A DNA stretch of 32,854 bases from positions 1 to 32,854 of the forward strand of contig REAR01000107.1 in the NCBI GenBank assembly GCA_004295245.1, written 5' to 3'. This DNA comes from Sphingobacteriales bacterium (lineage in GTDB: Bacteria; Bacteroidota; Bacteroidia; Chitinophagales; Chitinophagaceae). The position numbers and the translations under genes are program-made. A model generated the notes under the pieces. It did not search any database. It had not been told where the DNA came from and saw only the letters and a program-made list of their open reading frames with translations. This document shows positions 8,050-19,954 of this stretch, piece by piece. Numbering within the stretch: position 1 is the first letter of the stretch; each line of letters begins with the position of its first letter.

Positions 8050-8122
8050 GTTAACCAGGATTCTGTCCCGAACGTTCGGAATCATAGCAGCAGGCGTTGC
8101 GTCGCACACTTGTGCTTTATAG
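8050..8122 (-). repeat. Intergenic repeat family, copy R4 with TCCCGAA palindrome
   Basis: Plus-strand reading: GTTAACCAGG, the palindrome TCCCGAACGTTCGGAA (8066-8081), then AGCAGCAGGCGTTGCGTCGCAC. It is unusual in lying between two divergent genes, where it cannot be a 3'-end element of either. Confidence 0.75.
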
Positions 8123-15753: not shown

Positions 15754-15998
15754 AAACAGTTAATTGATTGCCTGAAAATAGCAATAAATGACAAATGGCT
15801 GCGTTATTTAAAAAAATCCTGCCCTCAAAGTTTTAAATTTCTGCAATTTTTATTTACTTTGTAATCAACAGACGAATAAAAGCCCCATTAGTTAGGCAAA
15901 CCCCTCCATCCAATCCGCAGAAAAGCAATCCGTTTACTCCCTTTGATCACGCCCTTTTCCGTACACTTCTTTATTTTTTAACGTAAAAATGGTTTGCT

Positions 15999-16100
15999 AT
16001 GAAATTTGACATTACACATCACAGTACCGCTAAGATTGCAATTATTGTTATTGCATTGTATGCAGTTATTGCAGTAGTTAGTTATTTTGCCTGGAAATAA
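15999..16100 (+). CDS. Small single-pass membrane protein, 33 residues
   Basis: ATG at 15999 opens 33 codons ending in a double stop TAATAA. The product starts MKFDITHHSTAK and continues with one hydrophobic helix (about residues 13-31), ending AWK. I recognise no family. Real-gene signs: both flanking genes are on the minus strand, yet a terminator that works only for plus-strand RNA lies 53 bases downstream, followed by a repeat copy in the orientation seen at gene 3' ends. A -7-like TACTTTG at 15857 would give a leader of about 135 bases. No strong ribosome-binding site is seen; an out-of-frame ATG lies 11 bases upstream. Confidence 0.6.
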   Translation: MKFDITHHSTAKIAIIVIALYAVIAVVSYFAWK

Positions 16101-16153
16101 TAAGCAAGGCATTCTACTAAAATAATATTGCCCGGTTGCATAAACCGGCGGGT

Positions 16154-16189
16154 AAATCTTTCTTTTTAACCAGAAGAAAGATTTTTTTT
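16154..16189 (+). terminator. Plus-strand rho-independent terminator after the small gene
   Basis: AAATCTTTCTT (16154-16164) and AAGAAAGATTT (16174-16184) pair perfectly over 11 bp with a 9-base loop and a run of eight T ending at 16189. The reverse direction has no T tract. A second hairpin, CCGGTT/AACCGG, lies just upstream (16132-16148). Confidence 0.8.
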
Positions 16190-16240
16190 GCCAGCTATTG
16201 AAACACTCTTCAGCAGCCGTTGCGTCGCACACTTCAACAG
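16189..16240 (-). repeat. Intergenic repeat family, copy R7a
   Basis: Plus-strand reading: TTGCCAGCTATTG, then CAGCAGCCGTTGCGTCGCACACTTC. It abuts the T tract of the small gene's terminator, matching the 3'-end position seen elsewhere. Confidence 0.75.
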
Positions 16241-16245
16241 TAGGA

Positions 16246-16294
16246 TTGCTGATTTGAGATTTTAAATTTCAAATCAGCAATATCAAATCTCAAA
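16246..16294. repeat. Nested inverted repeat, AT-rich
   Basis: TTGCTGATTTGA (16246-16257) is the exact reverse complement of 16269-16280, and TTTGAGATTT (about 16253-16262) is mirrored by AAATCTCAAA (about 16285-16294). The two possible stems compete, so the element could switch between folds or be a decayed mobile palindrome. Confidence 0.65.
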
Positions 16295-16303
16295 TGCAAA
16301 AAT

Positions 16304-16359
16304 GTGCAACGCAAGGATGACGCCATGAATCCCGAACTTTCGGGACTGTTGCTGATTAC
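16304..16359 (+). repeat. Intergenic repeat family, copy R7b with TCCCGAA palindrome
   Basis: GTGCAACGCAAGGATG, then the palindrome TCCCGAACTTTCGGGA (16330-16345) and the end TGCTGATTAC, next to the stop codon of the dehydrogenase gene on the minus strand. Confidence 0.7.
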
Positions 16360-17613
16360 CTAATTAAACCGATCGGGATTAAACGGAGCTATATTCATAC
16401 TAGTGGGCTTGCCCTGTAAAATTTCGCTCACCAGCTTGCCGGTGCCTGCACCTAAACTTAAACCCAACATTGAGTGGCCGGTGGCTATCACCAGGTTATC
16501 AATTTTTTTTGAGCGGCCAATATAAGGCAAGCCATCTGCCGATACCGGGCGATAGCCATACCATATCTTATCCATTGTTGGCATGGGTATATCAAACTCA
16601 GGATAATACCTTTTAACAGCATCTAAAATACCTTGCACTCTATTGCTGCGGGGTGGTGTTTTATGAGAAGTAATTTCCATAGTGCCGCCAAAGCGAATTT
16701 TATTACCATCCATTGGGGTAATAGCGGCACGGCCTTCTATCAGCACCGCAGGATAGTTTACTTTATACGGAGAATTTTCGAGTGTATAAGAATATCCACG
16801 GCCGGGCATCATAGCAACCTTAACATCCATTAATGCGGCCACCTGCCGGCTCCAAGAACCGGTGGCTAATACAACTGCATCTGCCTCAAAAGCAGAAATG
16901 GTTGTTATGACTTTATTGATACGATTCCCTTTTTTTTCTATCTGCACCACTTCTTCATTTGGCTTTAGCTGCACACCTGCAGCAGGTAAATATTGCAATA
17001 GGTTTTGCATTAACTTATTGGGGTAGCAATGTGCATCGCAATTAAATAATATTGCGCCGCGGGCATTTAAAGGTGTATGCGGTTCTAATGACTGCAACTG
17101 TTCTTTACTCAGCAATACAGTATCAGTTAACCCAATTTCATGGGCTTTTTCTATAGTGTGGTGGGCGTGTGCTTCGCCAGCATCTGTCTGAAAAATTTCA
17201 AGCAGACCTTTGTGCTCGTATGCAAAATTAAAACCGGGTTGTTGCAACCAGCTAACATATTCTTTCTGGCTGAGCATAGCAATATCCCGTAAAGGAATAG
17301 CGGCGTCGTTTACATGCTTTGGTGTTGCTATGCGCATAAACTTCATGCCCCAGTCAATTAAATTAAAATCAAGTTTGGGTTGCACATAAAAAGGGCTTTT
17401 TGAATTCCACATCCATTTTAAGCCTTGTTTTACCACACCCGGTGTAGCCAGTGGTATAAAATGACTGGGACAGATATAGCCACAATTGCCATAAGAACAG
17501 TTATCGCTGAAATCGCCTTTATCCAAAACGGTTACCTGCCAGCCCTGCTGCTGAAGATAATAAGCACTGCTTAAACCAATAATGCCACCACCAATAATAA
17601 TTGCCTTTGCCAT
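16360..17613 (-). CDS. FAD-dependent D-amino-acid dehydrogenase, probably D-hydroxyproline dehydrogenase
   Basis: DadA-type flavoenzyme. The dinucleotide fold is at the N terminus (AIIIGGGIIGLSSAYYL), with further FAD contacts at VVLATGSWS and the C-terminal GHSMLGLSLGAGTGKLVSE. Length 417 residues fits DadA/HypO. In isolation it could oxidise D-alanine, but the window also holds hydroxyproline epimerase, the DHDPS-type deaminase and the semialdehyde dehydrogenase, so the likely substrate is cis-4-hydroxy-D-proline, giving 1-pyrroline-4-hydroxy-2-carboxylate. The gene starts 18 bases after the broken arabinofuranosidase gene and is last in that minus-strand series. Confidence 0.85.
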   Translation of the reverse strand: MAKAIIIGGGIIGLSSAYYLQQQGWQVTVLDKGDFSDNCSYGNCGYICPSHFIPLATPGVVKQGLKWMWNSKSPFYVQPKLDFNLIDWGMKFMRIATPKHVNDAAIPLRDIAMLSQKEYVSWLQQPGFNFAYEHKGLLEIFQTDAGEAHAHHTIEKAHEIGLTDTVLLSKEQLQSLEPHTPLNARGAILFNCDAHCYPNKLMQNLLQYLPAAGVQLKPNEEVVQIEKKGNRINKVITTISAFEADAVVLATGSWSRQVAALMDVKVAMMPGRGYSYTLENSPYKVNYPAVLIEGRAAITPMDGNKIRFGGTMEITSHKTPPRSNRVQGILDAVKRYYPEFDIPMPTMDKIWYGYRPVSADGLPYIGRSKKIDNLVIATGHSMLGLSLGAGTGKLVSEILQGKPTSMNIAPFNPDRFN

Positions 17614-17631: not shown

Positions 17632-19954
17632 TTAGTTTTTTTTAATTATTCTTACCCCAAAAACACGCCCTGCAGTTTTGCCATAATTAGCTTCTATGCT
17701 GATAGTGAGTTGTTTTTTCCCATGCAGGAGACTGGTTGGCAATGCATACTCCACATCGTAAAACTTACCTGTCTTGCCACCATTCCATTCAACAGTGGCA
17801 ATAATAACACCATCTGCTTTAATATCAAACTTGCGATCTTTATCATCGCCAATATAGGTAAACAACAGTGTTACGGGTGTATCCTGTTCAACCTTCATTA
17901 CAAAAGAAAAGTAATTGTCTTTACGGGCTTCTCTTCCCATTCTGTCAAACGCATCGCTTACATAACTACGCTCTGTTGCTTTTAACTGATGGTCTCTTTC
18001 CGGCTGCATCTCTCCTATTCTGAAATTATCTATGGTGCGTTCTTCTATTTGCTGCTGGCGTTTTTTATCTGCTTCGTATTCATCTTTCAGCTTTGCCCAT
18101 TCTTCATTGGTAAAATAATCCCAGTAAACACTGTAGTACTGATTGAAGGTTTGGTAAAAAGGAATTAAAGAAACATCAAAAGGTTGCCCCACACCCTTCA
18201 TCTGAAATTGCAGTGGCTGCGCAGCAGGCAGCACCCAATTATTTACATTGCGGTTACTGGTTAATAAAACGGGTACGCCATATACCGGGTCGGGCTTTGC
18301 TTTTCCTAACTGACCCGCCAATACCAATGGCCCGTATTTAAAAGCCACACGGTTGGGGTTATCTGGCATGGCCTCTGTATATAAGTTCATGGGCACCGTA
18401 ATTTCCAGCACATCACCCACGCTAAATTTTTGTTTTATTACTAAATAACCCGCTTCATCAGTTTGATAGCTAATGACTTTATTATTTAAACGCAGGTTAA
18501 TGCCCTGTGTGGCCCAAAATGGTTTACGAATACGAAGGGTATAAGGTGTTTTAGTTGCCGTTTGTATTAAGAAACGTATCGTATCGCTGGCCGGGAAACT
18601 TGTTTGCTGTGAAATAATCAAACCAGCTTCTTTCCATTTTAGTACAGAAGGGATAAACAAATTTACGTACAAGCTGCCACTTGCTATGATTTTCTATGCC
18701 GCTGCCCACGCAGCAGGTAAACGTATGAAAAGAATCGCTGAATTGTTTTTGTGTACCCATGCGCAGGGGCACAAAATAAGTCATCATGCCATTCTCAGGG
18801 TTTTGAGAAGCGAGGATATGATTGTACAAAGCCCGCTCATAATAATCCATATACTCAGCAGAGGGCTTGTAAGCAAACAAATGCCTTGTCAGCTTTAGCA
18901 TATTGTAGGTGTTGCAGGTTTCGCAGGTGGCATCGCTTAAACGTTCACTCAGCGAATCGGGCTTGCCGCAATACTCATAGTTACTGTTACCACCAATTAC
19001 ATAACTGTGATGATTTACCATTGTATGCCAAAAAAATGCAGCAATAGTACTGTCACTTTTATTTCCTGTTAGTTCGTATTGGCGGGCACTGCCAATAGCT
19101 TTTGGCACATTGGTATTACTGTGCTTACCCGGCAGCGGATCTTTTTGTTTTGCCAGTTGCCCCATCACAAACTCATCGTAAAACTTATAAGAAAGGTTTA
19201 AATACTTTTTATTACCGGTGATTGCATAAATATTGGCCAGCACATCATTCATACCACCGTATTCACAGTTCAGCATTTTTAAACGCAGGCTATCAGGTAA
19301 ATGATTAACGGTATTATACGTCCAATCTGCCATACGGGTAACTAACTGCAATGCCCTTTTATTATTGGTATACAAATACGCATCGCATAAACCTGCCATT
19401 ACTTTATGCACGGTATACCAGGGGCTCCAACCGCCGTTTAAATCAAACCCGCCCGATTTTATTTCTCCTTTGGCCACTTTATCAAAAATACTGTCTTCAT
19501 TGGGTATGGCACCAATATAACCGGTTTTGCGTGCCTGCTCACAACGCTCCAGTTCGTTTACAATATAATCGCTTCTCTTTTTAAATTCATTATTGCCTGT
19601 TGCCACATACATCATGGAAATTGCAGAAAGATAATGCCCCATTGTATGGCCCGACAAGCCTTCGCTTTCCCAACCGCCATATATAGAATCTTTAACTGGC
19701 AGACCCGCATTTTTATAAAAACGATACAATAACCGGTCTGGCTTCAGCAACATTAAATACGCACTGTCTAATTGCATGGCTTTTTTAAACGGACTGTTTA
19801 ACAACCTCACGTTACTTAAATTAAACGCATAGGCTTTTACCGGTGCCACATTGGGTACCATAATTGCTTTATTGTTTTTCTCCGGCACGTAAGATTGGGC
19901 CCAGCCTGCAGCCCATAAAAACAATACACCACAGATTGCTGTTATTTTTTTCAT
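17632..19954 (-). pseudogene. GH127/GH146-type beta-L-arabinofuranosidase, broken by deletion and frameshift
   Basis: Two adjacent frames together make one enzyme of about 780 residues. The first part (start 19954) has a signal peptide to about residue 19, then ATCETCNTYNMLKLTRHLF with E345 and C347, and FTCCVGSGIENHSK with C414 and C415, the zinc/nucleophile set of GH127/GH146. Right after NHSK (18680) the frame is lost. The downstream frame resumes at SLYVNLFIPS (about 18675) and carries the beta-sandwich and C-terminal domains to 17632. The family normally has about ten residues (YGxxIYxx...) between these points, so a short non-triplet deletion fits. AAGT near the junction may have been the recombining microhomology. 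Either a real pseudogene or an assembly error. Confidence 0.85.

Follow-up and report, generated by a model that had tools for sequence, protein, structure and literature searches.

A small single-span membrane protein gene, sm1, and its conserved leader in the Chitinophagaceae

The sm1 locus

The window, the whole 32,854-nucleotide stretch of Chitinophagaceae DNA analysed here, contains at 15999-16100 on the plus strand a frame of 33 codons that we call sm1, a label coined in this analysis. Homology, selection and helix prediction all point to a small single-span membrane protein as its product, MKFDITHHSTAKIAIIVIALYAVIAVVSYFAWK (33 residues). The frame closes with tandem stops, a TAA and directly behind it another in-frame TAA (16101-16103), and an intrinsic terminator lies beyond it at 16154-16189 on the plus strand, identified by sequence, folding and scanning. 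Here a 13-bp stem (16154-16166 with 16172-16184) and a 5-nt loop are followed by a run of eight T residues on the plus strand, whereas on the minus strand ACCC follows the stem, so the hairpin should terminate plus-strand transcription only. The plus-strand fold has a z-score of -3.3. This terminator is absent from the list of a standard terminator scan and was picked up by a custom scan, which places such terminators at 14 of 46 family loci compared with 1.2 expected.

Both large neighbours are encoded on the minus strand, with a divergent esterase-domain protein (PF00756, 15019-15753) on the 5' side and a convergent FAD-dependent oxidoreductase (DAO, PF01266, D-amino-acid-dehydrogenase-like, 16360-17613) on the 3' side, each assigned by profile match. 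By this layout sm1 is monocistronic in the window and must have its own promoter and terminator; the genome carries one copy of it. The original prediction had named the double stop, the strand-specific terminator and the minus-strand neighbours, and all three are present as described. Further along, the minus-strand frames 17632-18672 and 18551-19954 overlap, the first having a TTG start and GH127 middle and DUF6805 domains. From the domains read in this first frame the two may be a single beta-L-arabinofuranosidase-like gene split by a frameshift.

Downstream of sm1 and outside the gene, matches to a repeat core mark a copy of a dispersed repeat with inverted ends at 16219-16315. The repeat, GTTGCGTCGCACNCTT, is present 631 times without mismatch in the genome of 3.37 Mb, compared with none for a reversed control, and its core matches ten times within the window against 0.12 expected, one match lying at 16220-16234. 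It is intergenic and often present as an inverted pair, occurring also at 8097, 10898, 20029, 20050, 23156, 24332, 28070 and 29715, and from its sequence it appears to be a REP- or MITE-like element. The repeat copy that had been predicted to follow the gene is therefore real. We rejected any link between it and sm1, as it is one of 631 copies and is absent from the homologous sm1 loci of other species; L091 and L188, loci from two other genera, each contain a single occurrence of the repeat.

Conservation, distribution and predicted structure of sm1

Pooled pN/pS values for sm1 in three genera were 0.31, 0.24 and 0.20, with most of the differences falling at third codon positions. An equal number of random substitutions gave many more residue changes and created a stop in 39-70% of trials, and together these tests show that the conservation of sm1 exceeds chance. 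Synonymous sites are near saturation, suggesting that the sm1 frame itself is unconstrained as RNA. On this sequence evidence, from which translation is also deduced, sm1 is almost certainly a real protein-coding gene under purifying selection. The hidden 33-residue membrane protein gene that had been proposed is thereby borne out, by a frame kept across the family with synonymous changes, as had been specified beforehand, and also by its single helix, its terminator and its conserved leader.

When 59 relatives were searched with the single sequence, sm1 turned up in both sister species of its genus, at 64% and 53% identity, and in three other genera. With a profile of 6 sequences (A1) sm1 was found in 58 of 394 family genomes and 19 of 101 genera, and with one of 27 sequences (A2) in 63 of 394 genomes and 18 of 101 genera, such that about one fifth of the Chitinophagaceae genera sampled contain a homologue. 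These homologues are 31-43 residues long, and named carriers include Agriterribacter humi YJ03 and several Chitinophagaceae MAGs. No convincing homologue was found outside the family in samples of the phylum and the order, where the matches were mostly pieces of longer frames (L153, for example, lies within a long frame) or very weak, and were not accepted.

The chromosomal place of sm1 is largely fixed. In most genera valS comes next after sm1 and is read in the same direction, and a hairpin often separates the two. All 20 of the marginal matches that were fetched (E 3e-11 to 5e-4) adjoin a DnaQ/GIY-YIG exonuclease gene (18), valS (18) or both (16), which is also the place of the strong matches, and this shared synteny supports the weak ones. 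Across 20 loci from an order-wide search, some in the same genomes as the marginal matches, valS was downstream in every case and the exonuclease upstream in 19, including L118 and L125, where the exonuclease had a broken or variant motif and was recognised by eye; at L126 no exonuclease was found upstream. Internal stops in the exonuclease matches of L085 (G004) and L104 (G012) may reflect assembly error or decay. The arrangement differs in a few lineages. An esterase gene is the neighbour throughout the window genus and also in another genus, g9, while in g10 sm1 adjoins aat (aat and valS were identified by reading their sequences). In the sister species the exonuclease gene occupies the place that the FAD oxidoreductase has on the convergent side in the window, and in the window genome it sits on a different contig. 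In genome G009 sm1 is absent despite an intact exonuclease-valS pair, from which it appears to be dispensable over evolution. Overall, comparison of these loci shows that sm1 was mostly inherited at one locus.

The family alignment (A3, 46 sequences) follows the pattern M-[KRE]-x(n)-[ES]-x-x-[KR]-x-x-[LI]-I-V-[IL]-x-x-[YF]-[AG]-x-I-A-x-[IV]-[TS]-Y-[LF]-x-W. Residues M1, V17, I24 and W32 are near-invariant, and K/R12, Y/F21, T/S28 and Y29 are kept along with W32 while Ile, Val and Leu swap freely. AlphaFold2 run with this alignment gave the one membrane helix that had been expected, spanning residues 10-32, with block pLDDT of 93-98 in the membrane part and above 90 through most of the helix. 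On average the N-terminal tail carries 2.2 K/R residues compared with 0.3 after the helix, which by the positive-inside rule would place the N-terminus in the cytoplasm. The predicted topology is N-in/C-out in the inner membrane, with the Trp at the periplasmic end. The charged, His-rich N-terminus of the original prediction is a family trait only in part, since His is present in the tail of 29 of 46 members. Conservation along the helix showed no significant periodicity (p 0.09-0.46) and the idea of a one-sided helix face was dropped.

Searches of Pfam-A, NCBIfam (27 members searched in both) and PHROGs gave no match above a family cut-off or with a significant E-value, nothing among the phage families of PHROGs was better than E 0.1, and a profile search of all PDB chains returned no sequence match at E up to 10. 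A faint helix resemblance to PF14960 (ATP synthase regulation; DAPIT, subunit k), seen in 5 of 27 members with a best E of 0.045, is at chance level for 27 x 24,736 comparisons, and kinship with DAPIT, which is a mitochondrial protein, was rejected. The literature on small proteins consisted of general work in which we did not come across the family. With fewer than 50 residues and one transmembrane helix sm1 fits the small single-span class and is, as judged from its sequence, a new family of an already known sort.

The leader and a second gene, sm2

Upstream of sm1 a conserved leader core occupies 15936-15998 on the plus strand, as defined by a block aligned across genera that includes ACTCCCTTTGA (15936-15946) and TTTTTTAACGTAAAAA (15974-15989). 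In nine species of Agriterribacter and its sister genus the blocks CTCCTTTGAAAGC, ATCCGGTCCTGATTTTT and TTAAAA recur in the approximately 60 nt before the start codon. Mean pairwise identity among these nine species is 82% in the central columns of the leader, 50% at third codon positions and 28% further upstream, the last being about the level of unrelated DNA. The leader core thus changes at a lower rate than third codon positions in this densely sampled group, and by this comparison the approximately 60 nt before the sm1 start codon are under strong selection in their own right. In the window genus the leader reads CTCCCTTTGA ... TTTTTTAACGTAAAAA at 15937-15989, with CCCCTTTGAAGGCTAACCG in one sister species. 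A model built without leaders of this genus recovered those of both sister species (E 0.001-0.002), whereas the window's own leader scored E 0.36 against the first model, so that its membership rests on position and on alignment by eye.

At 15854-15861 on the plus strand, TTACTTTG may be a Bacteroidetes -7 promoter element, for which the consensus is TAnnTTTG, and for comparison TAACTTTG/TAGCTTTG is found further upstream at several Agriterribacter-genus loci. This weak element would put the start site near 15868 and suggests a leader of about 130 nt. The leader of about 135 bases proposed at the outset is plausible at this length, and it is the 3' half that is strongly conserved in relatives. 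The spacing between the two leader boxes ranges from under 10 to about 40 nt across genera (by eye), unlike that of a -33/-7 pair, and we set aside the reading of the boxes as a plain promoter. A hairpin before the start codon, formed by pairing of a U-run with an A-run and convincing by eye, was likewise discarded, as its folding energy was no better than that of shuffled sequences (mean z -0.34 for the leader RNA) and no covarying pair was found.

The sm1 leader model also finds sites directly before another short frame, MKKLITMQDPEVAQVYLIAWAFFSTMTVFALLFV and its relatives, which we term sm2. This gene encodes 33-34 residues with a single helix and was found by the leader-model search in eight genomes of Agriterribacter and its sister genus (L174:5076-5177, L175:5031-5132, L176:5035-5136, L179, L180, L181, L218 and L219); no copy turned up in the window genome. 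Among six sm2 neighbourhoods a MATE-like transporter gene was present in four and an MFS-like gene in one, with neither in the remaining one, these identities being read from sequence by eye. Aligned from residue 1 onwards, the profiles of sm1 and sm2 agree in register (E 1.1e-4 as a single comparison, probability 56%), which makes a duplication of gene and leader likely, and sm2 is probably paralogous to sm1.

When sm1 and sm2 leaders are combined in a joint model, it picks up the leaders of both sister species in the window genus. The core consensus is [CT]TGAAA.C ... ATCCG..CCTG ... TTTTTAA..TTAAAA and ends about 10 nt before the start codon. One further copy of the core, TTTGATCCGGCCCTG (L224:1501-1543, genome G175, E 2.6e-4), precedes a gene for a 233-aa membrane-anchored protein (MKIYPGKFKLKLFLIVIIITGIAVFLYVL...), which from its sequence is a possible further member of the leader group. 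It is this strongly conserved leader, common to a second small membrane protein, that is unusual about sm1. Tentatively, an undescribed regulatory leader may control the paralogous sm1 and sm2 as a regulon of tiny membrane proteins in the Chitinophagaceae, under a common transcription factor or RNA regulator. The common leader makes it directly testable how Bacteroidota switch on tiny membrane proteins.

Candidate role and comparison with known small membrane proteins

The superior conservation of the leader core over third codon positions would also be expected if the leader and frame together formed a regulatory small RNA in which the reading frame is incidental. We regard this as unlikely because the frame evolves as a protein, with pN/pS of 0.2-0.3 and synonymous sites near saturation, although a dual-function RNA, whose leader acts in trans while the protein is made too, is possible. 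In size, single helix and long conserved leader sm1 also resembles a type I toxin, a short hydrophobic peptide silenced by an antisense RNA. Type I toxins are usually patchy in distribution and often multicopy, whereas sm1 is a single-copy gene that many genera retain at one locus; with no significant Pfam or NCBIfam match among 27 members, a leader lacking a supported structure and no Rfam family found in the window, a toxin is quite improbable. The frequent order of sm1, hairpin and valS on one strand and the richness of the peptide in Ile and Val might suggest the leader peptide of an attenuator, with frame, hairpin and valS as one control unit. An attenuator however needs codons for one amino acid, while sm1 preserves K/R12, Y/F21, T/S28, Y29 and W32 as Ile, Val and Leu interchange, and the window genus (g1), g9 and g10 keep an equally conserved sm1 without valS downstream, making attenuation of valS very improbable. 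A membrane-active or secreted peptide of the bacteriocin or holin kind, which a short hydrophobic product might bring to mind, is highly improbable given the slow evolution of sm1 at a fixed place, the lack of a phage family match better than E 0.1 and the failure to recognise a transport or immunity gene beside it.

We return to sm1 as a membrane protein in its own right, for which the candidate role that we favour, by analogy and with reasonable though far from full confidence, is that of an accessory or regulatory subunit of an inner-membrane complex. The locus would form a complete one-gene unit, running from the putative promoter through a leader of about 130 nt, the last 60 or so conserved, to the 33-codon gene and its own terminator. 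The single helix is predicted to cross the inner membrane with its positive tail in the cytoplasm and its Trp at the periplasmic end, and V17, Y/F21, I24, T/S28, Y29 and W32, in or at the membrane, would pack against a larger inner-membrane protein that sm1 would stabilise or tune. This role is the most likely one because an active site could not be accommodated in so short a protein and because its conserved positions fall within the membrane or at its edge. The neighbouring genes (exonuclease, valS, esterase) encode soluble proteins, differ between lineages and do not point to a partner. As a similar leader precedes a second membrane protein of 33-34 residues, we infer that the leader core controls sm1 production, and it would set the timing either as a DNA site or as an RNA target.

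Annotation and curated family databases pass over genes as short as sm1, so that a protein retained through much of a bacterial family has so far been nameless. As a target sm1 is unusually well posed, with its mostly fixed place, its few indicative residues and the selection on its leader.

Several small membrane proteins offer a comparison. CydX is a 37-aa subunit of cytochrome bd oxidase with a tiny single inner-membrane helix, its N-terminus in the cytoplasm and its C-terminus in the periplasm, and with the motif YxxWxxGx15[ED] (PMC4325964). sm1 shares the tiny single helix and the predicted N-in/C-out orientation, but the CydX motif is present in 0 of 50 members, there is no Pfam match, the Trp of sm1 is C-terminal and, at the loci examined, sm1 lies beside the exonuclease, valS, esterase or aat genes and not beside cydAB. 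CcoM, a 36-aa subunit of the cbb3 oxidase of Pseudomonas stutzeri (PMC10433244), is alike in size and, by analogy, in its role as a single subunit, though the search of PDB chains (E up to 10) gave no match. AcrZ, MgtS and other membrane proteins in the 30-50 aa range modulate a large transporter to which they bind (PMC10710835), and sm1 resembles these in its small size, without a significant Pfam or NCBIfam match. While belonging to none of these families, sm1 is best read, by analogy, as a protein that works like CydX, CcoM or AcrZ.
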